IMG/VR virus record: IMGVR_UViG_3300044974_000617
Location: 1-28,991 of that record
Length of the DNA stretch: 28,991 nucleotides
Strand: one strand, 5' to 3'
Origin: a virus
The notes beneath the pieces are model-generated. The model had not been told where the DNA came from. It ran no database searches and worked only from the letters and a program-made list of their open reading frames with translations. A program made the position numbers and the translations under genes. This document shows positions 1 through 28,991 of this stretch, one piece after another; position 1 is the stretch's first letter; every line of letters starts with the position of its first letter.

Positions 1-127
1 AAAGACAGGATAATTATCTGTTTAGTGATACTTTAAATACCAATAGAGAGTCGGATGCTATACCATTGATTTATGGTACTTATTTGTGCCAATCAATACC
101 TGTCCTTAGCTCCAGTATAAGTAAGGT
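1..127. repeat. Terminal direct repeat, left copy (assembly overlap)
   Basis: Bases 1-127 are identical to 28865-28991. The length of exactly 127 equals a common maximum assembler k-mer, and an open frame (gene I) crosses the join. It is best read as the overlap of a circular contig, not as a biological terminal repeat. The unique length is 28,864 bp. Confidence 0.93.
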
Positions 128-140
128 TTCTTCTATTTAG
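1..140 (+). CDS. I: Tail assembly protein I, C-terminal end (wraps from 28453)
   Basis: Bases 1-127 duplicate the right edge. The reading frame enters with codons starting at base 3 and continues to the TAG at 138-140. It encodes the conserved C-terminal region of protein I, including PLIYGTY. This is not a separate gene. Only bases 128-140 are new relative to the right end. In the circular genome the whole gene runs 28453-28864 and then 1-140. Confidence 0.8.
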   Translation, partial: RQDNYLFSDTLNTNRESDAIPLIYGTYLCQSIPVLSSSISKVSSI

Positions 141-160
141 CCTATTTATTACTACTCAAT

Positions 161-171
161 ACTGGTATAAT
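161..171 (+). promoter_or_regulatory. Extended -10 promoter for the GIY-YIG gene at 206
   Basis: The sequence TGGTATAAT (163-171) is a perfect extended -10 element, lying 34 bp before the ATG at 206. No good -35 box is seen, which is normal for extended -10 promoters. The same nonamer occurs on the minus strand before the replication operon at 3492-3500. Confidence 0.55.
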
Positions 172-205
172 TTAATCAGTATTAAATAATAATAATTACA
201 AAAAT

Positions 206-1096
206 ATGAATAGTAAATCAGCAGGAATATACTTAATATTAAGTAAGACAAATGGTAAGAGATATGTTGGGAGTTCAATTAGAATTTGTGATAGATGGGG
301 CAGACATTTATCTGAATTAAGAGCTAACAAACATCACTCACAACACTTACAAAACCACTTTAACAAATATGGTGAACAAGACCTAATATTTACTGTATTA
401 GAGGTGGTTGAAAGAGGTGAGTTAAATTTAAATGACTTTAAAGAGTTACTTCTTAGTAGAGAGCAAGCTTATTTAGATAATTGGGAGGAGTGTCAATTTA
501 ACTCTAGACCTATTGCTGGAAGTAATTTAGGACATAAAATCCAAGGATCCAAATACTATACATATGCAAATGGTTCTTATAATGTCTATTATACTGTGAA
601 TGGATATAACTATTCATTTAGCAATCATTATACTGAAGAAGAAGCTATTAGGGAGGTAGAGTATTTAAAAACTCTTACTAATGAAGAACTAATTGAGTAT
701 GAAAAACAGTGTAGAGCTAAACCTAAAAGATTATATAAGGTAGAAGGTTCAAAATATTATTCATTTAATAAAGCATCTAAGATGTATCTTGTCACATATA
801 GAATTGAAGGCAAACCTGTTAAATTTAGCAATCATTATACTGAAGAAGAAGCTATTAAAGAGGTTGAATACTTAAAAACTTTAACTGATGATGAACTGCT
901 TAAGTATAAACAGGAGTGTATGAATAGACCCATAAAAACCAAAAGAAATGCAAAGCATTATTCATTTGTTAAGCTATCAAATAATTGGAAAGTAAAGTTT
1001 AGAAGTAAGTTTTATGGTTATTTTGCAACTGAACAAGAGGCCATTGATAAAGTAAATGAATTAAAACAAGAATTGAATATTAAACAAGGGGTTTAA
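206..1096 (+). CDS. GIY-YIG endonuclease with three AP2-like DNA-binding modules
   Basis: Probable site-specific (homing-type) DNA endonuclease of 296 residues. The GIY-YIG domain covers about residues 5-110, with G7-I8-Y9, Y20-V21-G22, R30, H34, the metal-binding E86 and N99 all visible. Behind it are three modules of the pattern K-Y-Y ... strands ... TEEEAIxEVEYLK, about 69 residues each. The last is short (KHYSF to the end, with YGYFATEQEAID). These match the AP2-type three-strand DNA-binding fold. A perfect 35-bp direct repeat (616-650 and 823-857) shows recent module duplication. The gene lies 65 bp downstream of tail gene I and has its own promoter. Two paralogues lie at 5453-6112 and 25328-26401. 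Homing is inferred from the family; the target site is unknown. Confidence 0.85.
   Translation: MNSKSAGIYLILSKTNGKRYVGSSIRICDRWGRHLSELRANKHHSQHLQNHFNKYGEQDLIFTVLEVVERGELNLNDFKELLLSREQAYLDNWEECQFNSRPIAGSNLGHKIQGSKYYTYANGSYNVYYTVNGYNYSFSNHYTEEEAIREVEYLKTLTNEELIEYEKQCRAKPKRLYKVEGSKYYSFNKASKMYLVTYRIEGKPVKFSNHYTEEEAIKEVEYLKTLTDDELLKYKQECMNRPIKTKRNAKHYSFVKLSNNWKVKFRSKFYGYFATEQEAIDKVNELKQELNIKQGV
616..857 (+). repeat. 35-bp perfect direct repeat, 207 bp apart, inside the GIY-YIG gene
   Basis: Bases 616-650 and 823-857 are identical (start atttagcaat, end gctatta). The spacing of 207 bp is 69 codons, so the repeat marks two in-frame copies of the DNA-binding module. It gives a substrate for slippage or recombination that would add or remove one module without breaking the frame. 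Confidence 0.85.
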
Positions 1097-1101
1097 TTAT
1101 T

Positions 1102-1380
1102 ATGAAATTATCAAAGAAATTACAAAGTTTATTAATTGTTGATGAGTTTATTGCTAGTCCAAATACTAATAAGAAACTATTAGAAGTGGTCCTTTTAGAG
1201 GGTAATTTAGAACTTCTAGAAGCTTTTAAAGTATATGATGAACAAACTATAGTGGCTACAATTAGAGACGCTACACTATCCTTTAAAGATCAAATGAATA
1301 GGTTTACAGAACCACAACCAATTAATAGTAAAAACTTATTAAAAGTTATTCAGGAAGTAAAATCAAATGAACAGAGTTAA
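1102..1380 (+). CDS. Hypothetical protein, 92 aa
   Basis: The start lies 5 bases after the stop of the GIY-YIG gene, so the two are probably co-transcribed. The product is a mostly helical, charged protein with no membrane segment and no motif I recognise. A GGGG stretch about 13 bases before the ATG is a poor ribosome site. The stop overlaps the next gene by 14 bases. It may be a small virion or DNA-metabolism accessory protein, but the sequence gives no firm clue. Confidence 0.6.
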   Translation: MKLSKKLQSLLIVDEFIASPNTNKKLLEVVLLEGNLELLEAFKVYDEQTIVATIRDATLSFKDQMNRFTEPQPINSKNLLKVIQEVKSNEQS

Positions 1381-1570
1381 AACAACTTTAGAAAAGATAA
1401 AGGATATTGAGAAAGAGTTAAGGTCAATTATTAAATCTGGTGACTTTGAATCAAAGGAAAGAAGATTATATATAATGAGCCAATTTGAAGTACTTAAGTA
1501 TTTATATGAAGTTGAAAAGTCTCTAGATAATGTTAAAGATGACTTCAAAATTACTATTGAATATAGTTAA
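1367..1570 (+). CDS. Hypothetical coiled-coil protein, 67 aa
   Basis: Overlaps the end of the 92-aa gene by 14 bases in another frame, a typical coupled phage arrangement. The protein is highly charged and predicted all-helical (TLEKIKDIEKELRSIIKSGD...), probably a coiled coil or helical hairpin. No family is recognised. An opposite-strand frame at 1363-1548 has a less natural composition, so the plus-strand reading is preferred. Confidence 0.5.
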   Translation: MNRVKTTLEKIKDIEKELRSIIKSGDFESKERRLYIMSQFEVLKYLYEVEKSLDNVKDDFKITIEYS

Positions 1571-1608
1571 ATATATTTTATATATATGCCCATAATTATC
1601 AACTAATT

Positions 1609-1617
1609 TGTTATACT
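1609..1617 (+). promoter_or_regulatory. Extended -10 element before the 40-aa membrane peptide
   Basis: TGTTATACT (1609-1617) fits the extended -10 pattern TGnTATAnT and lies 13 bp before the ATG at 1631, so the transcript leader would be very short. No clear -35 box is present. Confidence 0.35.
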
Positions 1618-1630
1618 ATATATATGTGTG

Positions 1631-1753
1631 ATGGCTTTTATATTTGTTTTATTGTTTGTTATATACTTTTATTATTTGTTGAACTTGTTTTGGTTGTTTG
1701 TGCTTATTTGGTTGATTTATTTAGTTGTTAAACTGTTAAATAAATGGATTTAA
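1631..1753 (+). CDS. Small hydrophobic membrane peptide, 40 aa (holin candidate)
   Basis: A short frame starts at ATG 1631 and ends at TAA 1751-1753. It encodes MAFIFVLLFVIYFYYLLNLF followed by WLFVLIWLIYLVVKLLNKWI, about 33 residues of nearly unbroken hydrophobic and aromatic sequence with a basic end (K, K). It would form one long or two short membrane helices. It lies between an extended -10 element and a strong terminator, so it looks like a stand-alone unit. Small hydrophobic peptides with a basic tail are typical of phage holins and lysis peptides, and no other holin was found. A second frame at 1624-1731 (35 aa) also reads as hydrophobic, which weakens the case because the whole stretch is T-rich. 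Confidence 0.4.
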   Translation: MAFIFVLLFVIYFYYLLNLFWLFVLIWLIYLVVKLLNKWI

Positions 1754-1757
1754 TAAT

Positions 1758-1791
1758 AAACCTCCTGGCTTAATTGCTAGGAGGTTTTTTG
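1758..1791. terminator. Hairpin terminator between convergent units
   Basis: AAACCTCCT (1758-1766) pairs with AGGAGGTTT (1779-1787), followed by a T run. The other strand also ends in a T-rich stretch. It serves the plus-strand unit and probably also the converging replication gene. Confidence 0.8.
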
Positions 1792-1815
1792 TTGTTATTG
1801 TTGGTTGTTAAGGTG

Positions 1816-3315
1816 TTAGTTAAAAGGTTTTTCTACTAGAATTGGATTGTTTAAGCCAGATGTTAAACCAGCTTGTTTGATTGTTTCTTCTGATACTTTA
1901 TGTAGTGTGATAAGTCCATCATATTCTGAGCCTAGAGTTACAAACTCTTCTTTAACTTTACCAAGTACACTCAGATGATGAATAAATGCACTCTCCTGAC
2001 CAGCTAGTATGAAATGAGCTAATGTAGCCTTTGCTTTCCATATCTCCTTGTTGGTGTTTTTGCCTAGCAACTCAGTTACATTTATTCTCATTCCTGTTGG
2101 GTTTGTAATATAAATACATTTGTTTCCTGCTTTATAACCATTCAACAAAATATAAGTTGTAACTAAGTAGTTGTGCCATATATCAAGTGATTCTTTAAGG
2201 GGTTTAATAGCACTAGCATAGGCTTGTAGAGAGGTTATAACTTTGTCTACATCACCTAAGAACTCCTTGTTTAGAGCATCTAATACTGCTGCTAGAGGGC
2301 CTCCATCTTTATCTAATTTAGCTTGTGCTTTCTTAATATCAGTTGGTAATGAAGAACCCATAATAGTACTAATTAATAATTGCTTCCAACAACCAACACT
2401 AACTCCTACAAGAGCAGCATATTCATACTTTGAATTAGGGTTTGCTTTGTAATCTTCTAACCATTTTGTGTTAATATTAGCAGCTTCAAATTGCTGAATT
2501 AAACCATTAACTTGACTAGCTTGTAAGTCATAGTTATGTAAGTCTTTAATGTCTTTATAAGCTATTTCTTTCATCTCTCTACAAGCATTAGTCATAGCTC
2601 CAAATACTTGACATATTCTACCACTCATTTGCACTTCATAGGCTGGAACATAACTATATAAATCCTCTTCAATCTTTATTGGCTTTTGAGCAACTACTAA
2701 ACTATAAGCAGTGTTAGAGCTATAATATTGACCTCTGATAGTATTGAATTGATCTTTAGTAATACTTAAGTTTGTGAAGTAATCTTCCTTGGCTTGTACA
2801 TATAAAGCTTCTTGTTTGTTAATATAAGCTTCTAAAGACTCTAATCTAATAAGACAATAGGGTATGGAGCTCATTGCATCTTTAACTAGTTGTGGTGCTT
2901 GATGAGTGCTATTTGGTAGTTTAAAACTACTTACTTGTTTGGTATTAACAACCCTACCAGTGAATAAATTGTACTTAGTTGCTTCTATGTCTTCTGCTAG
3001 TGGTAGCTTGCCAGCTTCTAGAAAGAGGTCAATTAACTCTAAGTTAACTGTAAACTCTCTTGATTTATGCTCTGTATAAGAGTAATCAGTTGCCTCTATT
3101 AAACCTCTTTCAACTAGTGATTTCCACCTTGCTTGTGGTATTTTTGCTTGAATTAATTCACATCCAATAGGGGCGGCTTCACCCCATTTAATTAGGTTAG
3201 ATACTAATGTGTGACATAAGAATGTTCTTGAATCCTTGGACAAGTCTAAATCATTAATTAAATCTAGTTGGGCTTTATTAACTTTGTAGAAGTCTATTAT
3301 GTATGCTTGTGTCAT
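1816..3315 (-). CDS. Replication protein: winged-helix plus family-A-like palm polymerase, 499 aa
   Basis: Candidate replicase or initiator. Residues about 30-100 look like a winged helix (ARWKSLVERGLIEATDYSYTEH). The second half carries ordered motifs of family-A DNA polymerases and single-subunit RNA polymerases. These are SGR (231-233, like the T-x-GR motif), YDLQASQVNGL (motif A, D263), K311 followed nine residues later by G320 (motif B, O-helix pattern K...G), a helix AHFILAGQESAFIHHLS (433-449, matching the Q-G-x-x-A-D helix) and EYDGLIT (motif C, D466, with Tyr where His is usual). No exonuclease, helicase or primase domain is seen. The gene starts 1 bp after an RHH regulator and lies beside the iteron region, as in plasmid Rep modules. 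The polymerase call is inferred from motifs; the motif order fits well. Confidence 0.65.
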   Translation of the reverse strand: MTQAYIIDFYKVNKAQLDLINDLDLSKDSRTFLCHTLVSNLIKWGEAAPIGCELIQAKIPQARWKSLVERGLIEATDYSYTEHKSREFTVNLELIDLFLEAGKLPLAEDIEATKYNLFTGRVVNTKQVSSFKLPNSTHQAPQLVKDAMSSIPYCLIRLESLEAYINKQEALYVQAKEDYFTNLSITKDQFNTIRGQYYSSNTAYSLVVAQKPIKIEEDLYSYVPAYEVQMSGRICQVFGAMTNACREMKEIAYKDIKDLHNYDLQASQVNGLIQQFEAANINTKWLEDYKANPNSKYEYAALVGVSVGCWKQLLISTIMGSSLPTDIKKAQAKLDKDGGPLAAVLDALNKEFLGDVDKVITSLQAYASAIKPLKESLDIWHNYLVTTYILLNGYKAGNKCIYITNPTGMRINVTELLGKNTNKEIWKAKATLAHFILAGQESAFIHHLSVLGKVKEEFVTLGSEYDGLITLHKVSEETIKQAGLTSGLNNPILVEKPFN

Positions 3316-3316
3316 C

Positions 3317-3463
3317 TTATTTGGCCTCTAAATAATCAATTAGAATGTCATTAATTAAAGCGGAAACACTGTTTATTTTACTATGTGCTTCTACTAATGC
3401 TTCTAGTTTATTTAGTACTTCCTTTGATATTCTGGTGCTAACTGTTACTTTTGTGGTTTTCAT
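3317..3463 (-). CDS. CopG/Arc-type ribbon-helix-helix regulator, 48 aa
   Basis: The short frame starts at CAT 3461-3463 and stops at 3317-3319, one base before the replication gene. The protein begins MKTTKVTVSTRISKEVLNKL, an RHH pattern: a beta strand (KVTVSTRI), a first helix (EVLNKLEALVEAH), a turn (NSVSA) and a second helix (LINDILIDYLEA). Such proteins dimerise and bind operators with the strand. Plasmid CopG represses its own rep operon from the same position, so copy control of the polymerase is the likely role here. An extended -10 promoter lies 29 bp upstream. Confidence 0.8.
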   Translation of the reverse strand: MKTTKVTVSTRISKEVLNKLEALVEAHSKINSVSALINDILIDYLEAK

Positions 3464-3491
3464 AATATTAATTTATTGATTTATACTTTGT

Positions 3492-3500
3492 ATTATACCA
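3492..3500 (-). promoter_or_regulatory. Extended -10 promoter of the RHH-replicase operon
   Basis: On the minus strand this reads TGGTATAAT, identical to the element at 163-171. It lies 29 bp before the RHH start. The AT-rich leader between them is a likely operator for the RHH protein. Confidence 0.55.
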
Positions 3501-3703
3501 TTAATTACTACTATTGTCTACTAATTATTACATTTAATGTATATATTTTTCTCTATGGTAAATCTTAAAACTATTTCAAATAACTACTGTAATTATTGTA
3601 ACAAATATGATATTTATTGGGGGTTGGATCACCAATTTTATGCCTTGTAATGTATATGTAGTAAGGGTTATAGCCATTGTGGATAGTCACCTATACTACC
3701 CTA

Positions 3704-3810
3704 TTTTCCTTCCTTCCCACTTTCCTTCTCTCCTCCTCTTCTCCTCTTCTCCTTTCCTTCCTCCTTCACTTCTTCCTTTCCTTCTTCACCTGCCTCTCTT
3801 CTTCCTTCCT
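3704..3810 (+). repeat. Polypyrimidine tract, 107 nt with four purines
   Basis: Only A3719, A3768, A3788 and G3792 interrupt C/T sequence. Bases 3720-3767 are 48 pure pyrimidines, and a weaker pyrimidine bias continues to 3860. In a genome where T and A dominate, the C content here is exceptional. Such homopurine-homopyrimidine DNA can form triplex structures and blocks or primes polymerases in other systems. Two open frames in it (3607-3867, 3677-3877) are low-complexity Ser/Phe/Leu/Pro artefacts. Confidence 0.85.
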
Positions 3811-3869
3811 ATCACAACTTCACTGCCCTTTCTCTATCTCCAACCTTCCTCTCCCTTCCTTGGATAACC

Positions 3870-3937
3870 TAAATTAGAATTAAATTAGAATTAAATTAAC
3901 TTTAAATTAGAAATTAAATTAGAATTTAAATTAACTT
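3870..3937 (+). repeat. Six 11-bp iterons
   Basis: The units are TAAATTAGAAT (3870-3880), TAAATTAGAAT (3881-3891), TAAATTAACTT (3892-3902), TAAATTAGAAA (3903-3913), TAAATTAGAAT (3915-3925) and TAAATTAACTT (3927-3937). All share TAAATTA. The 11-bp period keeps copies on one face of the helix, as in Rep-binding iterons, and the array is almost pure A/T, so it could also be the unwinding element. Confidence 0.8.
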
Positions 3938-3993
3938 TATTACTAATTCCTTAAGTGGTCTTTTAATTACATTTCATATAAATATCACAATTA

Positions 3994-4064
3994 CACAAGC
4001 ACCAAGTAACTACATCTTTATTAGGGTTTAAACCTATAAATATACTAGTTACTTTATACTTGTG
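3994..4064. repeat. 71-bp imperfect dyad with central palindrome
   Basis: The arm cacaagcaccaagtaacta (3994-4012) matches the reverse complement of 4046-4064 at 16 of 19 positions. The exact centre holds the palindrome GGTTTAAACC (4025-4034). It could be a cruciform at the origin, a binding site for a dimeric protein, a resolution site, or a packaging/nicking site close to the end of the terminase gene. Confidence 0.65.
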
Positions 4065-4202
4065 ATTAGGTGATTCTATGTTTTAAACTACTATCCAAAC
4101 ATTGTTATTATTACATTATATTTAACAATTTGGGCCACATTTGTTTAGTTAATCTAATAACTCTTATCTCCCATTTGTTTAACATATTTAACTATTTATT
4201 AC

Positions 4203-5453
4203 TTATTTTTTATTATTCATAATATATGCTATAACCCCAGTAACAGCATCTAGGATGTGGTCATTGCCTTTAACAAACTTGTCAGCTATGACAGTACCAT
4301 CATCCAATAACACCCTTTTATAGCCTTTAATTTGGTCAATTAGTAGGGTTAAATTTCTATTAATAAACAATGTTTTGTTGTAAAACATATTGTTAGTTTT
4401 ATCACATCTATGACTTGGTTTATAGCCAATAGCATTTCTAGGAATAGTTAAAGCTTGTGTTAATCCTCTTCTTCTAGCACTAATAACAAGATCACTTCTG
4501 TCATCTGGCACACAGACTCTATACAATTTATAGTTGTTATTTAGTAGCTGCCACTTATCTAATATCTCATCAACAGTAACAATTGAATCAGACTGCCAAC
4601 TATCTACAACCTCTAATACAAGGCTGTTATCCTCTAACACTAAGCACTTAACAACAGCATAAGCAGCATTTACAGTTCCACTATCAGTACCTAAGTAATG
4701 TATCTCTTTAACAACTCTAAGAGGGTTCATAACTTGCCTATAACTACCTAAGTTATCCTCTGTAAAGCAGTCAAAAACATTAGCAGGACTATCAATAAAC
4801 TCAGACATAAACTCAGCTTGAAAGGCTTTATCACTTAATATAGTCTTTAAATAGTTAATCTTTTCCTCTGTAAATAGCTCATTGTCATACACAGTAAACT
4901 TAAAATGTTTAACTCCATCTCTCATTGTAAGGCGGTGAAAAGGACTTAATAACCCACTAGAAGCAGTACCAATACATAACACCTGACCATTATCTAAGAG
5001 CCTTGGAAGTATAACATAATCAAGTAAATACTCTACTTTATCAACATCTTGAGTCTCATCAAGATAAAACCTATAAAAAGACTTACCTCTTAGATGACTG
5101 CCAGTATTATCAGTACCCATTCCAGTTATGAGTAAGTCTGGTCTTACTCCTTTAAATCTAACTCTAAGTTCTGACTTGTTATATTCAAGTACAACATCCT
5201 TAAGGTCTTCTTCAATAAAGGATAATAAATATAACCAATGAATGCTTTTAGCAACTACTTGTGACTGCATACATATAACAACCCAAGGCCTATCTAATGG
5301 GCTTATAGGGCCGCTATAATTCAAGCAAGCTATGATTGCACTTCTCAACATTAAGTAGCTCTTACCACTACTTCTAGCTGCAACCATAACCTTTATTTTA
5401 CTAGTTTGATCTCTTTCAACTATTGATTGTATTTTTGTAAATTTGATATTCAT
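4203..5453 (-). CDS. terL: Terminase large subunit
   Basis: ATP-driven DNA-packaging motor and headful/cos nuclease, 416 residues, normal length. The ATPase domain shows Walker A AARSSGKS (about 25-32), Walker B FYLDETQ (about 129-135, D then catalytic E) and coupling motif GTASSG (about 162-167). The C-terminal nuclease domain has YLGTDSG (first acidic residue, about D257), VPDDRSD (about 314-320) and HILDAVTG (last Asp, about 401). The start overlaps the stop of the GIY-YIG gene (TAATG), giving coupled translation. No small subunit is recognised nearby. It acts with the portal encoded at 27000-28361. Confidence 0.93.
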   Translation of the reverse strand: MNIKFTKIQSIVERDQTSKIKVMVAARSSGKSYLMLRSAIIACLNYSGPISPLDRPWVVICMQSQVVAKSIHWLYLLSFIEEDLKDVVLEYNKSELRVRFKGVRPDLLITGMGTDNTGSHLRGKSFYRFYLDETQDVDKVEYLLDYVILPRLLDNGQVLCIGTASSGLLSPFHRLTMRDGVKHFKFTVYDNELFTEEKINYLKTILSDKAFQAEFMSEFIDSPANVFDCFTEDNLGSYRQVMNPLRVVKEIHYLGTDSGTVNAAYAVVKCLVLEDNSLVLEVVDSWQSDSIVTVDEILDKWQLLNNNYKLYRVCVPDDRSDLVISARRRGLTQALTIPRNAIGYKPSHRCDKTNNMFYNKTLFINRNLTLLIDQIKGYKRVLLDDGTVIADKFVKGNDHILDAVTGVIAYIMNNKK

Positions 5454-6112
5454 TATTCAATTCCTAGCTCTAATTTAAGTTGTTTGACTCTATCTATAGC
5501 TTCTTGTTCTGTTGCATAAGAGCCAAAGTATTTGTTCTTACCTTCCAAAATAAATTGAACTTTATATTTACGTTCTAATTTATTAAAACTATAATGTCTA
5601 ACATTTCTTTTAAGTTTTACAGGCTTTGCTAGACACTTTTCTTTATAATTCAACAATTCCTCTTGTGTTAAAGTCTTGATATATTCAACCTCTTTAATTG
5701 CTTCATCTTCTAAATGGTGATAAGAGAAAGTTATCATTTTACCTTGTATATGATAATAAGTTTGATATTGTTTACTACTATATCTATAGTACTTAGAGCC
5801 TTCTTGTTTAAATCCTATTCTACTCCCAGCAGCAGGACAATCATTAAATTCAGGTTTTAGCAAGTCCATATAGTATTGTTCCCTTTCAGTTAGTAAACTT
5901 AAATCAACTACTTCTTCTAATACTTCAAATGTTAAATCTTCTATTGAATATTTATTAAAATGATTTTGTAAGTGATTATTAGGGTTCTTATTATTCTTTA
6001 AAGTACTTAAATGCATCCTCCACCTCTGCCCTATATCAACACTCTGACCAACATACTTTTTACCATTAACTTTACTAGTAATTAAATATATTCCACTTAC
6101 TTTACTTTTCAT
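5453..6112 (-). CDS. GIY-YIG endonuclease with two AP2-like modules
   Basis: A 219-residue paralogue of the enzymes at 206 and 25328. GIY (GIYLI), YVG (KYVGQSVDIGQRW), the following Arg and His, and the catalytic Glu (TEREQYY) are present. Two AP2-like modules follow: GSKYYRY...EDEAIKEVEY and RHYSF...FGSYATEQEAIDRV. The gene is sandwiched in an operon, overlapping the RHH gene upstream by 11 bases and the terminase start downstream by one base. A nuclease beside terL is often a homing element; in some cos phages an HNH nuclease next to terminase takes part in packaging. Whether this GIY-YIG enzyme does so is open. Confidence 0.85.
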   Translation of the reverse strand: MKSKVSGIYLITSKVNGKKYVGQSVDIGQRWRMHLSTLKNNKNPNNHLQNHFNKYSIEDLTFEVLEEVVDLSLLTEREQYYMDLLKPEFNDCPAAGSRIGFKQEGSKYYRYSSKQYQTYYHIQGKMITFSYHHLEDEAIKEVEYIKTLTQEELLNYKEKCLAKPVKLKRNVRHYSFNKLERKYKVQFILEGKNKYFGSYATEQEAIDRVKQLKLELGIE

Positions 6113-6272
6113 TATTAGCCTCTCTTGTTTGTTTAACTTGTAGAAATGTAAGGTTATAATGAGCCATCAATATTTCTGTCATCTTAGTTGTATAGTGTGC
6201 TGTCTCTAACTGCATTAGGTCAACTAGCTCTTGAGGCACTCTTATTAAAACTGCTTTATTTTGTAATTTCAT
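6102..6272 (-). CDS. Ribbon-helix-helix protein, 56 aa, leader of the terminase operon
   Basis: Frame from CAT 6270-6272 to the stop at 6102-6104. The protein has the RHH pattern: strand KAVLIRVP, helix QELVDLMQLETA, then HYTTKMTEILMAHYNLTFLQ. It is clearly a paralogue of the RHH protein at 15821, sharing RxPxEL and YTTKxxxIL-x-HY. It is translated into the GIY-YIG gene by an 11-base overlap. It is probably the regulator of this operon and of the divergent one at 6415. Because no small terminase is seen, a DNA-recognition role in packaging is an untested alternative. Confidence 0.75.
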   Translation of the reverse strand: MKLQNKAVLIRVPQELVDLMQLETAHYTTKMTEILMAHYNLTFLQVKQTREANNEK

Positions 6273-6414
6273 ATATTTATTTAATTAACTATAAATAGTA
6301 TATCACATAGATATCTAATTATGTAAGCACTTATAATATTAATGCACATATTTATATATAAGATTGGTGCTATATTATATATAGTTAATAAATAAAGATA
6401 AACAAATAGGAATA
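6273..6414. promoter_or_regulatory. Divergent promoter/operator between two RHH-led operons
   Basis: The 142-bp region contains inverted elements: 6277-6293 (TTATTTAATTAACTATA) and, facing it, 6380-6396 (TATAGTTAATAAATAAA), which agree closely when one is reversed. TATATT at 6371-6376 is a likely plus-strand -10. The motif TATATTATATATAGT recurs before the RHH gene at 15821. These are candidate operators for the small RHH proteins. Confidence 0.5.
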
Positions 6415-21759: not shown

Positions 21760-21780
21760 ATTGGCAAAATAATAAATAAT

Positions 21781-21850: not shown

Positions 21851-22858
21851 TTAGGATAGGTCGCCAAGCTGTGCAACACCAGCTCTATTTCTGAATACCA
21901 GTTGAGGGTTAATAGAAACACTAAACTTAGCAGCTTCAGGGTTAGCAGAAGGTAGTTGAGCAACATAGAATGAAAGACCAGGAACTCCATTAGCTTGATC
22001 AACAGTACCCAAGGAATCAGTATGTTCAAAAGAGTAAAGTTTAACTTGATTTTCATTAATGAAGAATACATTACCTACAGGAGCATAAGGATCTTCAATG
22101 ATAGGAATACCTTCAAATTGCAGAGTTGAGTAAGAAATATCAGCAACACCAGCACCATATTGAGGTAGAACTCTAGCATCAAACAAAGTCTTATAAGCAT
22201 TAGCAGTAATAGGGTTCATATACAAAGCAGTAACATTAGAGTTAGTACCAATTGTAGCTCCACTCTTAACATCACTTAATACTGTTCTTAGTAAAGCAAC
22301 AGTTAATGCTCTAGGAGTACCAGCATTCTTATAAACCAAGTTAGTCCACTTAGTATAAGTAGCAGGATCTAGACCAGCATAAACAACAGTTGATTTGTTA
22401 GATGTGGCGGTTGCACCAAGATCAGCAATACCTTTACTAATACCACTATTAGAACCAGCAACATAAAGTCTAGTAGCCAATTCAAGGGTCAAAGCTTCAA
22501 TAGCTGTGTCTACTTCAAATTGAAGCAAGTCAGCAATTTCACCAACACCAATATTAGCAGCTTCCTTTAATTCATTGTTTAGAACTGTAAAAGAGCGTCT
22601 TAGTCTATTATCACCAATAGGTAATGAAGCAGTAGCCATAACATCAGATGCAAAAGAACTAACATCTGCTGTAGATGCTTCAGCAGTAACAGCACCATAG
22701 CCAGTGTCTACGTTCCACTTAATCAATCTTTGTCCAATTTGAGGAAGATTTCCAATTGCACTCAGTCTTTGTAACATTGGAATATTGTAAATACCTGCGA
22801 TTTTGGTTACATCAGGAATTACATTGTATTTCAATCCATTAGAATCAATAAATGCCAT
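21851..22858 (-). CDS. Major capsid protein (HK97-like fold)
   Basis: 335 residues, a usual length for a capsid without a delta domain. It shows the N-arm, a long helix (VGEIADLLQFEVDTAIEALT, about 104-123), P-loop and A-domain features (ALTVALLRTVLSDV, ALYMNPITANAYKTL), GIPIIEDPYAP (about 249-259) and the C-terminal FSVSINPQLVFRNRAGVAQL. The phrase with I-I-E-D-P followed by VFFINENQVKLY is typical of this fold. It is a single-gene unit, flanked by a double terminator and a divergent promoter region. The scaffold candidate is about 6 kb away at 15092-15634. Confidence 0.85.
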   Translation of the reverse strand: MAFIDSNGLKYNVIPDVTKIAGIYNIPMLQRLSAIGNLPQIGQRLIKWNVDTGYGAVTAEASTADVSSFASDVMATASLPIGDNRLRRSFTVLNNELKEAANIGVGEIADLLQFEVDTAIEALTLELATRLYVAGSNSGISKGIADLGATATSNKSTVVYAGLDPATYTKWTNLVYKNAGTPRALTVALLRTVLSDVKSGATIGTNSNVTALYMNPITANAYKTLFDARVLPQYGAGVADISYSTLQFEGIPIIEDPYAPVGNVFFINENQVKLYSFEHTDSLGTVDQANGVPGLSFYVAQLPSANPEAAKFSVSINPQLVFRNRAGVAQLGDLS

Positions 22859-23036
22859 ATATTCTTATTGTTTAAGTTTATTAATAATTTAATATCTATA
22901 ATATACCCTAAAACTATATTAATTAATAGGCAAATTAATATTTTTAATAAGTTTATTTATAATTATGTGCACACATTTTACATAGTAGTTTGTTTTAGTA
23001 TTTATATATAAATTAAATGACTAATTAAACAAACAA
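22859..23036. promoter_or_regulatory. Divergent promoter region of capsid and 136-aa genes
   Basis: 178 bp. The minus strand contains a TATATT element in the stretch at 22899-22910; the plus strand has TATATA before the 136-aa gene. An 8-bp palindrome TGTGCACA stands in otherwise AT-only DNA near 22970. It may be a protein site. Confidence 0.35.
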
Positions 23037-23447
23037 ATGACTTACAAATATAAATGCCTAAATGAGTTTCTTAAACAATATAAAGAAAGTAATTATAAGT
23101 ATAGTAATTATGATTATGAATCTATAAGAGAAGATATGGATAAACATTACTTGGAACTTAAACAAAGAAGAATACTATCAACTAAATATAATGATGTTAG
23201 TATTATGGGGACCAAAATGGAGGGATTATTAAAGTTAGATAGCTTTACTTTAATAGTTAATGAATTTGCTGATGGTAGTGTTTATTTGGCCTATTTAACA
23301 ATTAATCTTAATGGTAAAATAATATTAAATCCTGATGTAATTGTTAGTAAAGTTAAAGCTCCAGCAACTACGGACTTTAATAGAAATAATTATGTTGATA
23401 AAACTTGTTATTCTATTCCTATTAATAAATGTAGAAGAATTGCCTAA
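23037..23447 (+). CDS. Hypothetical protein, 136 aa
   Basis: A single-gene unit between the capsid promoter region and a terminator. The N-terminal third is rich in Tyr, Lys and Asn (FLKQYKESNYKYSNYDYESI) and helical; the rest is beta-like (FTLIVNEFADGSVYLAYLTI). No motif is recognised and no membrane segment seen. It could be an early or host-interaction protein, since it is on its own, but there is no direct evidence. Confidence 0.6.
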   Translation: MTYKYKCLNEFLKQYKESNYKYSNYDYESIREDMDKHYLELKQRRILSTKYNDVSIMGTKMEGLLKLDSFTLIVNEFADGSVYLAYLTINLNGKIILNPDVIVSKVKAPATTDFNRNNYVDKTCYSIPINKCRRIA

Positions 23448-23476
23448 TTAATCTCTAATTAATTTCTAATAAAAAC

Positions 23477-23524
23477 ATAAAACCTCTTAGATTGCTATTT
23501 AAATGGCTCTCTAAGAGGTTTTAT
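23477..23524. terminator. Bidirectional hairpin terminator
   Basis: ATAAAACCTCTTAG (23477-23490) pairs with CTAAGAGGTTTTAT (23511-23524). The stem and part of the loop (GCTATTTAA) match the terminator at 16973. Confidence 0.85.
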
Positions 23525-23588
23525 AGTTTAAAGGTAAGAACATAAGGAGATGCTAAATAAAGGGCCTTGTGGCTCAATCTAAAAGCAG

Positions 23589-24281
23589 TTATTTTATAAA
23601 CTTATTAATAAAATTATTCTTTTTATTATAAATTGCTTCAATATCTTCACAATGAGTTGATATTTGATTTGTGTTCCTGGTTGGATTATGAATACACAAT
23701 ATACCAGTAACTTCTCTATTCTTTAATATCAATATATGAATAATTGATTCTACATCTGTTAAAGAATAATATTCTTGTAAAATAGTTGGTATTTTGATTT
23801 CTTCTTTGTCTGCATTAATTAATGTACAATTAGATATGTTACTAGCATAAAAGCTTTTATTTTGTCTATTAACTAATATTTCAAAGTATGGAATTATACT
23901 ACTAACTGGCACTGATTGCCAATATTCTTTTATAGATTTAAAACTGTTATTAGTTACTTCTAAATAAGTTGATATCTTGTACAAATGGGTTCCAGTTACT
24001 ATTGAGGTACCATTATGAATAGCATCTAATAATACTCTATCTGATCCATAAAACTCTTTAACTTGGGCCATTAATACAAGTAGTTGTTTCTCCTGTTCAA
24101 GTGTCCTTGATAATGAGTTTTTAACTCTGTTTACTTGAGGTTCTATAATATATTTATATACTAAACCAACTCCCATAATAAACAATATAGATAATGATTG
24201 TTGACCTATTAAAACTAAGTTATCTATATTGTTTGATATAGGTATATTCTTTACCTCCTCAATAGCTTTTACATCTTTCAT
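23589..24281 (-). CDS. Membrane-anchored GAF-like protein, 230 aa
   Basis: A membrane helix (about 25-47, LVLIGQQSLSILFIMGVGLV) is followed by a coiled linker (QVNRVKNSLSRTLEQEKQ) and a soluble domain beginning SDRVLLDAIHNGTSIVTGTH. The DRV...HNGT...phrase, then a strand-rich region with ILILKNREVTGILCIHNP, resembles a family of phage membrane proteins with a FHNG motif and GAF-like fold. Its role is not established; holin-like or sensing roles have been suggested by position in other phages. It is the last gene of the U-M unit, 11 bases after M. Confidence 0.55.
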   Translation of the reverse strand: MKDVKAIEEVKNIPISNNIDNLVLIGQQSLSILFIMGVGLVYKYIIEPQVNRVKNSLSRTLEQEKQLLVLMAQVKEFYGSDRVLLDAIHNGTSIVTGTHLYKISTYLEVTNNSFKSIKEYWQSVPVSSIIPYFEILVNRQNKSFYASNISNCTLINADKEEIKIPTILQEYYSLTDVESIIHILILKNREVTGILCIHNPTRNTNQISTHCEDIEAIYNKKNNFINKFIK

Positions 24282-24292
24282 TGATTAATCCT

Positions 24293-24637
24293 CTAATTAG
24301 AATAAAATTGAGTTAATGTGCAGTTTAATGTCCATCTGTTTCCACTCAACAAATTAACAGAATAATTCTTACAATAGTATGAATACTGAGTGGCTTGTCC
24401 AAATGGAGTAAAACCAATTAAGTCTCCTGTTTGTGTATCAAGAAAAGATGTAAGAGTGTCTTTATCAGTGTTAGATAAGGCAACAAAGGAAAGAGATATA
24501 TCTGTCATTCTAGGGTTAATACCTACCTTAGAGATCTGTTTATAGCCATCTCCAAATTGAACTTCTCTTATCTTTAATTCATTAGATGATGAGTATTGAT
24601 TACTTATCAAATGTTGCAAAGGAAGTGGTTGTATCAT
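24293..24637 (-). CDS. M: Minor tail protein M
   Basis: 114 residues, matching lambda M (109) in size. The signature IREVQFGDGYKQISKVGINP (about 23-42) is the conserved FGDGYxQ...G-N motif of the M family. The C-terminus has FTPFGQATQYSYYCKNYSVN and WTLNCTLTQFY. In lambda, M is needed to complete the tail tip between H and L. The start overlaps the stop of the 66-aa gene (TAATG). Confidence 0.85.
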   Translation of the reverse strand: MIQPLPLQHLISNQYSSSNELKIREVQFGDGYKQISKVGINPRMTDISLSFVALSNTDKDTLTSFLDTQTGDLIGFTPFGQATQYSYYCKNYSVNLLSGNRWTLNCTLTQFYSN

Positions 24638-24837
24638 TATTTTTTAGCTACCCTTTTAGATTTAGTTGGCTTTTCAATTACCACTTGATCTTCACTTGAT
24701 ACAGATTGATCTTCAGTTACTTCTAGAAGTAAATGTTGATTATTTTGTATCTCTTTTATAAGATCGTGAGCAGATAGTTCACCTATATTGGCTCCTAACA
24801 AATTTAATTCATATCTTTGTTCAGTTAATGTTTTCAT
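24637..24837 (-). CDS. Hypothetical protein, 66 aa
   Basis: A short protein with a helical first half (LSAHDLIKEIQNNQHLLLEV) and a basic end (KPTKSKRVAKK). It lies between the probable tail terminator and M, 21 bases from the former and overlapping the latter. No family is recognised. The charged, flexible tail suggests a minor virion protein. Confidence 0.55.
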   Translation of the reverse strand: MKTLTEQRYELNLLGANIGELSAHDLIKEIQNNQHLLLEVTEDQSVSSEDQVVIEKPTKSKRVAKK

Positions 24838-24858
24838 TTTATTTTTACTATCCTATTA

Positions 24859-25227
24859 TTAATATTCTATTAGTTTAAAGTCTAAAATTGTGATCTTTAT
24901 TTGTTCAAAAATCTCAGAATCACCATCAGTATAAATCTGAGATACTACATCATAGCTACTCTGTAAGGCATCTACACAATTTTTAAGCTTTAAAGAGGGT
25001 GTAGTGTCATAATTTATTAATCTGATTACTAATTCATCTCTATGGTAATTTGAACCTCCTAACAGCTTAATTGGCGGTGTTGAAGATATGTATGGTAATA
25101 AACATAAGATGCCTGATATGTTTCTACTATAATTGCTGTTTTCATAGGCAATTGCAGGTTGATTTACATCAGTAAATTTACCAAGATTAGAGCTTAGTAA
25201 TGCTTTTATATCATTGATTAAAGTCAT
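24859..25227 (-). CDS. Probable tail terminator/minor tail protein U
   Basis: 122 residues, close to lambda U (131). An N-terminal helix (LINDIKALLSSNLGKF), mixed alpha/beta core (DELVIRLINYD, LKNCVDALQSSYDVV) and a final strand (QIKITILDFKLIEY) match the alpha/beta fold of tail terminators, which cap the tube and join it to the head. It is the first gene of the unit with M. The assignment is by fold impression and context. Confidence 0.5.
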   Translation of the reverse strand: MTLINDIKALLSSNLGKFTDVNQPAIAYENSNYSRNISGILCLLPYISSTPPIKLLGGSNYHRDELVIRLINYDTTPSLKLKNCVDALQSSYDVVSQIYTDGDSEIFEQIKITILDFKLIEY

Positions 25228-25289
25228 ATATTTTTTACTAGTTAATTAACTTAATAATACATTATTTATAAATAATTAATTAGGCTAAT

Positions 25290-25325
25290 AAAAAGGAGTT
25301 AGATTTATATTTCTAACTCCTTTTT
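25290..25325. terminator. Hairpin terminator between two minus-strand units
   Basis: AAAAAGGAGTTAGA (25290-25303) pairs with TCTAACTCCTTTTT (25312-25325). It ends the L/GIY-YIG transcript before the U unit. The inner part is nearly identical to the hairpins at 21723 and 21781. Confidence 0.85.
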
Positions 25326-25327
25326 AA

Positions 25328-26401
25328 TTAACTAATACCTAACTCTTTTCTAACTTCAATAACTCTATCAATTGCTTCTTGTTCAGTTAAATAAGAGCCA
25401 TAATATTTATTTCTACCGTTAGTATATATTTCAACTCTAAATTTACCAGAACACTTATCAACATTATAGTTTTTACCTTGTTTTCTTGTTTTAGGCTTGG
25501 CTCTACATTCTTGCTCAAATTTAATTAATTCCTCATTGGTTAAGGTTTTGAGATATTCAACCTCTTTAATTGCTTCCTCTTCTGTATGATGAGGGTTAAA
25601 GTTTAAGAACTTACCTGATACAGTATAAAAGGTTCTATAAAGTTGATCTTTTTTATTATATGTATAGTATTTGGCATCTTTACGAGGTTTACAAGGTCTA
25701 GATAAACACTCCTCTTTATACTTTAACAACTCATCATTAGTTAATGTTTTAAGGTATTCAACCTCTTTAATAGCCTCCTCTTCTGTATGATGAAGATTGA
25801 AATATATATTATTAAATCTTACTCTAAACATATTTGAGGCTTTATGAAGGTCATAATGTACTGCTCCTCTAGACTCTCTTTGAGGTTTAACTAAGCACTC
25901 TTGTTTATATTTTAATAATTCATTATCAGTTAAAGTTTTAAGATATTCCACTTCTTTAATTGCCTCTTCTTCTGTGTAATGATATCTAAAATTTAACTGT
26001 TTACCTTGTACATTGTAATAGGTTCTATATAAATTATTTTCAAACTTATAGTATTTACTACCTTCTTTCTTATAGCCTAAAGAACTTCCTGCAACTTTAT
26101 GAGTATTAAAATGGCATTCTTTCCAATTATTTAAGTAAGTCTGCTCTCTATCTAATAACAACTGTTTAAAGTCTTGTGAGCTTAACTCACCTCTTTCAAC
26201 TACCTCTAATATAGAGAATACTAAATCATCTTCTCCATACTTGTTATAATGATTTTGTAAATGGGGTGAGTGATGTTTATTACACCTTAATTCATTTAGA
26301 TGTATGCCCCATCTAATGCAAAATCTACTAGCACTGCCAACATATCTCTTACCGTTTACTTTACTTATTATTAAGTATATTCCTGCTTGTTTACTATTCA
26401 T
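25328..26401 (-). CDS. GIY-YIG endonuclease with four AP2-like modules
   Basis: 357 residues, the longest of the three paralogues. The nuclease domain (about 1-110) has GIY at 7-9, YVG at 20-22, R30, H34, the catalytic Glu (DREQTYL) and Asn. Four modules follow, starting near GSKYYKF, VHYDLHK, KYYTYNK and KNYNVDK. Each ends in TEEEAIKEVEYLKTL except the last (YLTEQEAIDRV). The nuclease domain is very close to that at 206. It lies 61 bp downstream of L, on the same strand. Like the others it probably cuts a specific long site, with module number setting the contact length. Confidence 0.88.
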   Translation of the reverse strand: MNSKQAGIYLIISKVNGKRYVGSASRFCIRWGIHLNELRCNKHHSPHLQNHYNKYGEDDLVFSILEVVERGELSSQDFKQLLLDREQTYLNNWKECHFNTHKVAGSSLGYKKEGSKYYKFENNLYRTYYNVQGKQLNFRYHYTEEEAIKEVEYLKTLTDNELLKYKQECLVKPQRESRGAVHYDLHKASNMFRVRFNNIYFNLHHTEEEAIKEVEYLKTLTNDELLKYKEECLSRPCKPRKDAKYYTYNKKDQLYRTFYTVSGKFLNFNPHHTEEEAIKEVEYLKTLTNEELIKFEQECRAKPKTRKQGKNYNVDKCSGKFRVEIYTNGRNKYYGSYLTEQEAIDRVIEVRKELGIS

Positions 26402-26462
26402 ATCCTTGTAATTAGATTAATTATTATACCTAATAATAGCATAATTACAGGCAGAAAAGTAA

Positions 26463-26891
26463 TCAATTCATCAAAAAACTCAGTCTCCCTTTTGGCAGCT
26501 TTACACTAGCAACTTCTAAGGCTGATCTAAGCACAAATGAAACTACTTGTTCATTCTCTTGATAATTAGTTACATAGAAGGTTTGTACATCTCCTGCTGT
26601 CATTGAATCAGACCAAACATAAGTCCTTTTGATAGGTATGTTTACAAAGTCATCATATATGCTTAGTAAGTCAGTTACATAACCATTTATATTAGATACT
26701 GTAATGGTTGGTTGAGGTAGTTTACCTTCACCTGATTTTTCATAACCCTCTGTCTTAAAAGGGTATATAGTGTATGTATTGCCAAGATAAGTTACTTCTT
26801 GAGTATTGCATAAGTATATGGCTGGAACTCCAAGAGAGGTCAAATCAATTTCTAGTAATTCTAGTAATTCAGGGGTAACAAGAGTATTCAT
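26463..26891 (-). CDS. L: Minor tail protein L, short form lacking the Fe-S domain
   Basis: 142 residues that match the N-terminal part of lambda L: VTYLGNTYTIYPFKTEGYEK, GKLPQPTITVSNINGYVTDL, then VNIPIKRTYVW and VVSFVLRSALEVASVKLPKG. Lambda L has 232 residues and continues with a cysteine domain that binds an iron-sulfur cluster. Here the frame stops at RLSFLMN just after the LPKG motif. The stop is followed by non-coding AT-rich sequence, so it is a natural short form or an old deletion. It is first in the unit with the four-module GIY-YIG gene. Confidence 0.8.
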   Translation of the reverse strand: MNTLVTPELLELLEIDLTSLGVPAIYLCNTQEVTYLGNTYTIYPFKTEGYEKSGEGKLPQPTITVSNINGYVTDLLSIYDDFVNIPIKRTYVWSDSMTAGDVQTFYVTNYQENEQVVSFVLRSALEVASVKLPKGRLSFLMN

Positions 26892-26999
26892 AATTATTAT
26901 TATTATTGTTATTTTTCCTAATTATAATGTTTATAAAGTTAGAATAGTAGGACTTTGCTCATAAGATTATGAATAAATCAAATATAATTAAGTAAATTA
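26892..26999. promoter_or_regulatory. Divergent promoter region of L and portal
   Basis: 108 bp. TATAAT lies on the minus strand at 26921-26926 and on the plus strand at 26983-26988. The plus element is only 11 bp before the portal ATG, so that transcript would be nearly leaderless if this is its promoter. Confidence 0.4.
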
Positions 27000-28361
27000 A
27001 TGAATGAATATATGAAAAATTTAACAATTAAACAGTTAATAAGTGCTTGTCCTGAATATTCTGAAGATGTGGCTGAATATGATTTTATTGAGTCTTTGTA
27101 TTGTGGTGATGTAGATGACTATAAAGAGTTGTTAGTTCCAAGGCGCTTTGAAGAGTTAAATGCTCCCTATAAAGCTAGACTAAAATCTTTTGTTTATACA
27201 AATTTATTAGGCGCTGCTATTAAAGAAATACTTAATAAGTTTATTCAAGGTAATATTAGTGTTCTTGGTAGTAGTGATACTTTAACTACTGTTAGAACTT
27301 TAATGCATAAGAATAGTAGTGAGATTTTATTCTTACAAGAGGTTCTTAAAGAAATTCTTTTAAATGAAGATGTTTATATTCTTACAACTTTTAAAGGGGA
27401 ATATGTTGAAGGACTTGTGGCTCAAATAGAAAATGAATATGTTCCAAAGCTACAAATTATTAAAAGACCACAAGTGTTAATCTATCAAGAAGGTGAGTTT
27501 GCTAAGCTACAAACTATTACTTCTAGAACTAACATTGAAGGTGAAACATCTTATGTTTATAAGTGGTTTATAATTGATAATGTAAGTATTACTGAATATG
27601 TTTATGAAAGCCCTACAGAGGTTATTAAAAAGACTAACTATAACTTAGTTATTCAGGGTAAATCAGTTAATCATAATAATGGTTCTATGCCCTTGATGAA
27701 GTTCTCTAGTCCTGATGATGAATCACTTGCTGAACAAATACTTCCTAAACAAAAACAATATACATTGATTGAAAATGGCTTAAATGCTGCTGCTTATGCT
27801 GCTAATATGATTCAAAAGGTTTATACACCTGTTGGTGAAGATATTAGTGTTCCTATTGATGATGTTAATGTTGGTAATGAGTATTTATTAAAGGCTTCTA
27901 AGTTTGAATTTGCTGAAATTCAAGGCACTTCTTTAGAGGTTCAAATGAAACTTCTGGATGCTATTAAAGCTGATATTAAATCAATTGCTTTCTTAAGTGG
28001 TACTTCATTTAATAAAGATATAAAGGTTAGTAGTGGTTATAGTAAGTCATTTGATGAGGATAACCTAGAGGCCTATCTGGAAAGTTTAGGTGGCCTTGTT
28101 AAAAATATCTATACTAAAATATTGAATCATATTCAAAATAATATATATGGTATTAAACAAGAAGTTAGTATAATTGGTCTTACTGAATTTAATGATGAAG
28201 ATAACTATTCTAAGTTAATTCCTGTTATGAAGGATTTAATAACTATTAAGGATCATCTTAGTCCTACTGCCTTTAAACAGTTTGCTACAAGAGTTTCAAT
28301 TTCATTGGTTGAAAATGCATCTCCTGATGTTTTAGAGTTAATCAGAAATGATCTAAAGTAA
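27000..28361 (+). CDS. Portal protein
   Basis: 453 residues, normal for siphovirus portals. It has the N-terminal crown/wing pattern YKARLKSFVYTNLLGAAIKE, a central beta region ending in NNGSMPLMKFSSPDDESLAE, a long helix (LNAAAYAANMIQKVYTPVGE), and the stem/clip region KADIKSIAFLSGTSFNKDI. The C-terminal helices contain EDNYSKLIPVMKDLITIKDH and a FATRVSISLVENASPDVLEL segment. It forms the dodecameric channel that docks terminase and the connector. Three ATGs occur near the start; the first is used because it is in frame and open. A terminator follows, then gene I. Confidence 0.85.
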   Translation: MNEYMKNLTIKQLISACPEYSEDVAEYDFIESLYCGDVDDYKELLVPRRFEELNAPYKARLKSFVYTNLLGAAIKEILNKFIQGNISVLGSSDTLTTVRTLMHKNSSEILFLQEVLKEILLNEDVYILTTFKGEYVEGLVAQIENEYVPKLQIIKRPQVLIYQEGEFAKLQTITSRTNIEGETSYVYKWFIIDNVSITEYVYESPTEVIKKTNYNLVIQGKSVNHNNGSMPLMKFSSPDDESLAEQILPKQKQYTLIENGLNAAAYAANMIQKVYTPVGEDISVPIDDVNVGNEYLLKASKFEFAEIQGTSLEVQMKLLDAIKADIKSIAFLSGTSFNKDIKVSSGYSKSFDEDNLEAYLESLGGLVKNIYTKILNHIQNNIYGIKQEVSIIGLTEFNDEDNYSKLIPVMKDLITIKDHLSPTAFKQFATRVSISLVENASPDVLELIRNDLK

Positions 28362-28369
28362 TAATAATT

Positions 28370-28391
28370 AGGGAGTTTAATACTCCCTTTT
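28370..28391 (+). terminator. Small terminator after portal
   Basis: AGGGAGT (28370-28376) pairs with ACTCCCT (28382-28388) with loop TTAAT, followed by a TTTT run. Short; it may be leaky, which would let transcription continue into gene I. Confidence 0.65.
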
Positions 28392-28452
28392 ATTGCCTAA
28401 CTATATTTAAAAGAAAGTCATATAATTAAGGAAAATATATTAAATAAAAACA

Positions 28453-28991
28453 ATGATTATAAAGTTTATAGGGCTGGATTATCCTGATATAGAAATTAAT
28501 AGCAATAGTTTACAAACTATTATTAAAGGCTTGATTTGTAATTTTGGTGAAGCATTTAAACAAGAAATTAAAGGTATTAAATTAACTACTTATACTACTA
28601 ATAGTGATGATGATGTGGTCCAAGATGTTGGTCAATTAGTTCTTAATGATAAGAGCTATGTGCCTATTGTTGGTGACATTATGTACATTTGTAAGGCTGT
28701 TGAAGGTGGTGGTGGTAACTTCTTTAATATTATATTTGGTGCTGTTTTAATTGGTGCTGGATTGTTATTTGCAAGCCCCTTGTTATTAGGTATTGGTGCA
28801 ACTTTCTTTGTTAGAGGTTTAAGTGGTGTTTTAGCTCCAACTACACAAACTCCAGATAAGGTTGAAAGACAGGATAATTATCTGTTTAGTGATACTTTAA
28901 ATACCAATAGAGAGTCGGATGCTATACCATTGATTTATGGTACTTATTTGTGCCAATCAATACCTGTCCTTAGCTCCAGTATAAGTAAGGT
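28453..28991 (+). CDS. I: Tail assembly protein I, N-terminal 179 codons (continues at base 128)
   Basis: This is the 5' part of a 183-residue protein that reads off the right edge and finishes at 138-140 once the 127-bp end overlap is collapsed. It resembles the lambda tail tip assembly protein I. It has an N-terminal ubiquitin-like stretch (MIIKFIGLDY...), a central glycine run (VEGGGG, about residue 90) followed by a hydrophobic segment (about residues 92-125, FNIIFGAVLIGAGLLFASP), and a conserved tail with PLIYGTY. In lambda, I acts with K and L in assembling the tail tip. Here it follows the portal gene and a small terminator at 28370-28391, so it may have its own promoter; a TATAAT lies near 28423. 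The family call rests on the glycine/hydrophobic segment and PLIYGTY. Confidence is good because the frame stays open across the join. Confidence 0.8.
   Translation, partial: MIIKFIGLDYPDIEINSNSLQTIIKGLICNFGEAFKQEIKGIKLTTYTTNSDDDVVQDVGQLVLNDKSYVPIVGDIMYICKAVEGGGGNFFNIIFGAVLIGAGLLFASPLLLGIGATFFVRGLSGVLAPTTQTPDKVERQDNYLFSDTLNTNRESDAIPLIYGTYLCQSIPVLSSSISK
28865..28991. repeat. Terminal direct repeat, right copy (assembly overlap)
   Basis: Second copy of the 127-bp end sequence. One copy should be removed before the genome is used as a circle. Confidence 0.93.

Follow-up and report, generated by a model that had tools for sequence, protein, structure and literature searches.

In long-tailed phages few features are as well conserved as the order of head and tail genes, which serves both to recognise and to classify them. 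In lambda, for example, V, G, T and H stand between U and M. In T4, middle and late promoters form dispersed regulons, with many copies of a phage-specific promoter over the genome. Here we describe the IMG/VR virus record IMGVR_UViG_3300044974_000617, analysed over its full length of 28,991 bp (the window, hereafter), in which the genes of a lambda-type virion are shuffled over both strands and nearly all of the units are preceded by one promoter-like motif. Among the papers available for searching, none described a shuffled siphovirus; the closest case was the Campylobacter group II phage CP21 (PMC4546147), in which structural genes are unclustered and oriented unlike those of T4-like relatives, and homing endonucleases and transposases are present. 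In its 183-kb T4-type genome (PMC4546147), four modules of 28-55 kb are rearranged, with long repeat regions (1-2.9 kb) between them. In the window, in contrast, single genes are rearranged within 28.9 kb and no long repeats lie between them, the repeats being the endonuclease paralogues and hairpins of ~50 bp. Judging from its genes, through which it is known here, the virus is a lambda-type tailed phage (Caudoviricetes, siphovirus). We consider it probable that it is a real, complete, circular phage of ~28.9 kb whose late operon was broken up and replaced by a dispersed regulon, making gene order and strand neutral. What is new is that a genome free of a fixed gene order encodes a lambda-type virion.

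Genes were called using PHROG and Pfam families together with profiles built between the window and its relatives, including the sister prophage-like contig G005. Fifteen lambda-type virion genes were placed, of which terL, K, J, scaffold, tape measure, tube, capsid, M, L, portal, I, U and one connector were recognised by families or profiles. The assigned genes are as follows (family matches with E values; ORF, open reading frame):

28453-28991, continuing over the circle junction to 140, + strand: tail assembly protein I (phrog_32, 4.7e-14; wrapped ORF of 183 aa; contig L002 spans the junction)
206-1096, + strand: GIY-YIG endonuclease GIY1 (PF01541, 9e-8)
1816-3315, - strand: family-A-polymerase-like protein, probable replication polymerase (pol; AlphaFold model)
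4203-5453, - strand: terminase large subunit, terL (phrog_2, 2.8e-22; relatives)
5453-6112, - strand: GIY-YIG endonuclease GIY2, overlapping the start of terL (PF01541, 1.5e-10)
6682-7383, + strand: tail tip protein K, NlpC/P60 (phrog_30, 2.9e-41; PF00877; homologue in G005)
7585-8537, + strand: tail chaperone G and its -1 frameshift product G-T (slip near 8127-8136; T frame open over 8130-8537)
9290-9673, - strand: head-tail connector, 3' of the capsid gene in relatives (profile matches in G002-G007 and Lbo402)
10889-14152, + strand: tail tip and host specificity protein J (phrog_31, 5.6e-197)
15092-15634, - strand: scaffold protein (phrog_206, 6.3e-7; profile matches in relatives)
17044-20844, - strand: tape measure protein with M23 peptidase domain (PF20155, PF01551; phrog_339)
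21032-21700, + strand: tail tube protein (phrog_1407, 7.8e-8; homologue in G005)
21851-22858, - strand: major capsid protein (phrog_37569, 2.8e-15; 33-41% identity to cyanobacterial prophages)
24293-24637, - strand: minor tail protein M (phrog_14, 2.2e-19)
24859-25227, - strand: tail terminator U (profile match to G005 17571-17963)
25328-26401, - strand: GIY-YIG endonuclease GIY3 (phrog_314, homing endonuclease family, 6.5e-11)
26463-26891, - strand: minor tail protein L (phrog_18, 6.4e-25)
27000-28361, + strand: portal protein (phrog_145, 1.7e-8; cyanophage homologues)

The assignment of G and T is based on a slippery stretch of nine consecutive A, placed before G ends and followed by the open -1 frame; the G005 gene that lies between tube and tape measure is weakly similar (E 0.012). 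Regarding the connectors, the one at 9290-9673 is upheld by its profile matches, and those of the original prediction at 8609 and 8890 were not confirmed by profile comparison. The 72-aa ORF at 7383, the small neighbour of K, showed no similarity to G005. The head, neck and tail proteins form a set of lambda type, with some neck proteins unconfirmed, and no tail sheath gene was recognised in Pfam and PHROG scans of the window. Megablast of window positions 4000-28991 against known phages gave no match, nor did an Rfam search.

Read around the circle, with unnamed genes given by coordinate, the order is I+, GIY1+, two unknown genes+, pol-, terL-, GIY2-, a 56-aa ORF-, K+, the 72-aa ORF+, G+/T+, 8609-, 8890-, connector 9290-, 9688-, J+, two ORFs-, scaffold-, 15821+, 16005+, tape measure-, tube+, capsid-, 23037+, 23589-, M-, a 66-aa ORF-, U-, GIY3-, L- and portal+. 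The strand switches 12 times, and a single one of the 14 canonical signed neighbour pairs is kept, namely G-T. Random circular orders keep a mean of 0.5 pairs (P of at least one, 0.39), so that the window resembles a random order, and when G-T is treated as one unit no canonical pair is left. The shuffling of virion genes over both strands, as the original prediction had claimed, is thus confirmed in numbers. As for the adjacent pairs it had named as survivors, G-T holds; U-M is not a canonical pair, though the relative direction of the two genes is canonical.

The same gene set (terL, portal, scaffold, capsid, connector, U, tube, G-GT with its frameshift, tape measure, M, L, K, I and J) stands on one strand in fixed order in lambda, in the lambda-tailed cyanophage isolates KBS-S-2A and MED4-117 and in G005, whereas the window shows random order and strand, with a promoter-like element and a terminator for nearly every unit. 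G005, which holds relatives of both the head and the lambda-type tail, keeps 14 of 14 canonical pairs on a single strand (terL-portal-scaffold-capsid-connector-U-tube-G-T-tape measure-M-L-K-I-J, with G, T and I assigned by position and size). In every related locus with both genes (close to 40 contigs, collected by profile searches for terL, portal and capsid), terL and portal lie on the same strand in the usual order, and scaffold, capsid and connector, where present, are also on that strand and canonical; the genomes of Picosynechococcus PCC 7117 and Calothrix membranacea are among these loci. The synteny comparison with terL and capsid relatives that had been proposed with the prediction therefore found the canonical order in G005, both isolates and the ~40 contigs. 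The terminase gene of G005 (9765-12038, locus L044) encodes 757 aa and has, by eye, an apparent intein.

A second rearranged case was found among cyanobacterial genomes, where a lambda L family protein occurs in one of 386, G309. The locus (G309:C53:3036-53438; L107, L109, L110 and L111) is a lambda-type prophage in a 6.5-Mb genome that has two M-like genes and, close by, transposase-like ORFs. On contig C53 the order is portal+, capsid-, scaffold-, terL-, J-, I-, M+, L+, a second M+, tube+, G+, T+, tape measure+ and K-, with G, T and the counted U placed by position and size rather than by profile. G309 resembles the window in that its lambda-type virion genes occupy both strands and that portal, M/L, K and I-J are displaced; it differs in keeping 6 of 13 canonical pairs and in lacking a shared promoter that convinces (a 12-base motif scored no higher than shuffles, and a 33-base excess came from low-complexity CCTTCTTCC repeats). 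Tail genes, as G309 shows, can move in blocks as well. Cyanobacterial phages have rearranged their lambda-type virion genes on two or more occasions, or gradually, and this argues against an assembly artefact in the window.

The first and last 127 bases of the record are identical at a spacing of 28,864, as is typical of circular contigs, and the complete genome is a circle of 28,864 bp; gene I consequently crosses the ends of the record. Five contigs from five other metagenomes provide second assemblies and together tile ~18.2 kb (18309-28991 and 1-7656):

28386-28991 and 1-7656: L002
23796-28592: L019
20206-25292: L003
18763-21988: L004
18309-21913: L010

L002 (99.97-100% identical) spans the junction, running unbroken from window position 7656 down to 1 and then from 28991 to 28386. 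All five are colinear with the window, the sole exception being one extra endonuclease gene, and the breaks at portal/I, I/terL, terL/K, L/portal, capsid/U-M and tube/capsid are seen again in them. Identity to the window is 99.3-100%, except for the stretch from tube into tape measure in L003 and L010 (93-97%). Among these conspecific contigs the tape measure is the most variable region (L003 4441-6000, L010 1056-4167; 93-97% versus >99% elsewhere), and L010 has an unaligned stretch of that gene near window positions 19071-19705.

A motif search upstream of the units gave the consensus TTGCCTATTTATT followed by TATAAT or TATTAT starting 28 nt after its first T. By Gibbs sampling it contains 15.1 bits of information, versus 12.0-12.9 in shuffles, and there are 13 sites in the window plus one before the polymorphic endonuclease gene. 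In a leave-one-out procedure, each site was dropped and the genome scanned with the rest, giving a rank among ~57,700 positions; eight of the 13 sites ranked 12-15, just behind the training sites, and four more 16-24. The sites precede the following genes:

138-171, + strand: GIY1 (rank 19)
6297-6330, - strand: the unit of 6102-6272, GIY2 and terL (rank 14)
10770-10803, - strand: the unit of 9688 and the connector (rank 15)
10822-10855, + strand: J (rank 14)
15693-15726, - strand: scaffold (rank 15)
20877-20910, - strand: tape measure (rank 15)
20957-20990, + strand: tube (rank 12)
22900-22933, - strand: capsid (rank 13)
25254-25287, - strand: U and M (rank 15)
26433-26466, - strand: GIY3 (rank 16)
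26921-26954, - strand: L (rank 24)
26955-26988, + strand: portal, back to back with the L motif (rank 18)
28393-28426, + strand: I (rank 83, weak when left out)

Upstream regions are 38-fold denser in motif matches than the rest of the window, partly by construction, as the same sites trained the model. The same ratio is 0- to 9-fold in G001-G005 and Lbo402 (few matches each), and with no comparable enrichment there the motif is specific to this virus. It shares a TATAAT box with sigma-70 promoters; TTGACA is absent at 16-18 nt upstream of it, and instead a conserved TTGCCTA begins 28 nt before TATAAT. A scan of the window with the sigma-70 consensus was at or below shuffle level and was not used. 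As in T4, many copies of one phage-specific element are present, although this one, with TTGCCTATTTATT starting 28 nt upstream of TATAAT, is unlike the T4 late box. Very small ORFs that by eye resemble ribbon-helix-helix or CopG-like proteins head different units (3320-3467, 6102-6272, the 6413 region and 15821-16003) and are candidate regulators.

Strong hairpins were detected at all six convergent junctions (folding z-scores of -5.6 to -9.7), and two more follow U/GIY3 and portal, for an overall range of -4.3 to -9.7:

1758-1787: bidirectional terminator hairpin between the 1367 unit and pol (z -6.0)
8561-8608: bidirectional terminator hairpin between G-T and 8609 (z -5.8)
14180-14232: bidirectional terminator hairpin between J and 14243 (z -5.6)
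16972-17022: bidirectional terminator hairpin between 16005 and tape measure (z -7.8)
21719-21826: two tandem hairpins between tube and capsid (z -7.3 and -9.7; a GIY-YIG gene stands at this junction in L003, L004 and L010)
23472-23529: bidirectional terminator hairpin between 23037 and 23589 (z -7.2)
25286-25335: hairpin at the 3' end of GIY3, of the tube/capsid-junction type (family D4; z -5.3)
28370-28388: hairpin between portal and I (z -4.3)

The shared motif and the hairpins bear out the proposal of units with their own promoter region and a bidirectional terminator. The ancestor would have had an ordinary single-strand late operon, which would have been broken up and rearranged until only the neighbours G and T were left together, kept because frameshifting forces both to stay. 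The single late promoter would have given way to a dispersed late regulon with a virus-specific element at nearly every unit, presumably a late promoter whose reading involves a factor encoded by the phage, and the hairpin closing such a unit would stop transcription from both sides. With its own promoter element and a two-way terminator for each unit, order and strand would no longer matter. The rearrangement itself may have been historical and stepwise, by inversions and transpositions over many generations.

Several points weigh against this reading. The I site falls to rank 83 when it is left out, and no motif at the same spacing was found before pol, K, 15821 and 23037, so that not all units are covered. 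Among the window genes we recognised no terminase small subunit, lysis cassette or transcription factor, and the virus may hence rely on functions outside those identified. The ~10.7 kb of 7657-18308 (G/T, connectors, J, scaffold and the end of the tape measure gene) come from a single assembly, with no further assemblies found using J as a query.

That singly assembled part could suggest a misassembly or a chimera of an ordinary phage, a concern already raised in the original prediction. For ~63% of the genome it is rejected by the order seen in the five contigs of other metagenomes; for the remainder it is unlikely, since the J, 9688 and scaffold units there bear the same virus-specific motif as the twice-assembled part and G309 is a second rearranged case. 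Overall, we give it hardly any chance. One could also argue that the window is a defective element or satellite whose virion genes have decayed and whose order is free because nothing is expressed, in keeping with the small genome and its few recognised replication or lysis genes. However, the virion ORFs are all full length and intact, they stay open in close relatives (93-99.9% identity) of other metagenomes, and promoter-like motifs, hairpins and the frameshift site are kept, so we regard this explanation as very improbable.

What moved the genes is a separate matter. The GIY-YIG catalytic domain was recognised in GIY1 and GIY2 (PF01541), and GIY3 matched the homing endonuclease family; GIY1 and GIY3, inverted relative to each other, share 79% identity over 309 bp. 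A fourth GIY-YIG gene (277 aa, ~0.99 kb, with its own motif) lies between capsid and tube in L003, L004 and L010 and is absent from window positions 21763-21850, so that close relatives differ by the presence of an endonuclease gene at one site. The hairpin type of the tube/capsid junction is also found 3' of GIY3, of the fourth gene and of a GIY-YIG gene in the unrelated, myovirus-like contig G001. Endonuclease cassettes visit virion gene junctions, and mobile endonuclease genes do sit between virion genes. These features, with the hairpin type present twice, footprint-like, at the capsid/tube junction without an endonuclease, and with no match to the GIY genes of the window in the canonical relatives G002-G005, would fit a model in which GIY-YIG endonucleases cut at hairpins between genes and cassettes of one gene were moved and inverted when repair engaged endonuclease paralogues or similar hairpins, as an ongoing process. 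On the other hand, an endonuclease now occupies only three of ~17 unit boundaries; hairpins at other junctions differ in sequence; contigs up to ~7% apart in the tape measure gene are colinear save for the capsid/tube endonuclease, no movement of a virion gene being seen among conspecific contigs over the ~18.2 kb tiled; and G309 is partly rearranged, in blocks, with transposase-like genes around and no GIY-YIG gene matched there. We therefore consider the model unlikely. The continuing excision and reinsertion of single genes that had been predicted is not supported, and with no virion gene moving among conspecifics an endonuclease-driven process is unproven; a part of the endonucleases in the shuffling is possible. 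Equally doubtful to us is the broadest version, in which order is fully freed from selection in promoter-gene-terminator cassettes served by a phage-specific factor, endonucleases initiate moves between hairpins, and the nearly invariant order of other tailed phages reflects operon transcription and not assembly.

Regarding the remaining genes, the 499-aa protein of 1816-3315 gave a model with a pLDDT of 75 when homologues were included (34 from the single sequence). The model matched Pol theta best (Z 22.0 over 318 residues, rmsd 3.2 A), followed by Klenow (19.9) and T7 DNA polymerase (19.8), and the motifs YDLxSSQ and EHDG are kept in the homologues. Neither the protein nor its homologues matched a Pfam or PHROG family, and a PDB sequence search found nothing significant. 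According to the model, it is family-A-polymerase-like and probably the replication polymerase. We also considered whether it could be an RNA polymerase reading the new promoter, which we do not favour, as DNA polymerases hold the top fold ranks and G001 has a 90% identical protein with no comparable motif enrichment. The family (L007 7428-8966; L040 2888-4468; L059, L060 and L061) is found in cyanobacterial prophages, in G001 and, distantly, in large Vibrio and Dickeya myoviruses. In several prophages the gene lies near a homologue of 16005-16931, whose D...ELK pattern recalls, by eye, PD-(D/E)XK nucleases. Upstream of the polymerase gene, a long purine/pyrimidine-biased tract (3596-3880), partly kept in G001 and with a similar one preceding the G003 polymerase gene, is a possible replication origin.

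Polymerase homologues adjoin canonical cyanobacterial prophages, and the gene in G001 is 87% identical in DNA. G001 (contig 3300042561_000572, 94 kb; L007, L050-L053) is AT-rich and myovirus-like, and its 1,546-aa ORF (14200-18840) has a stretch, DTDGDG, reminiscent by eye of two-barrel RNA polymerases. The window virus and G001 likely have a common host. The nearest relatives of capsid, terL, portal and polymerase are from cyanobacteria or cyanophages, and the host is most likely a cyanobacterium.

With the canonical G005, the half-shuffled G309 and the fully shuffled window, the question of whether the needs of assembly or only shared transcription keep the order of virion genes becomes testable. 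Our results suggest that this order is dispensable once all units are separately promoted, the exception being genes that translation needs as neighbours, as in the G-T frameshift, and they are a warning for synteny-based phage annotation.

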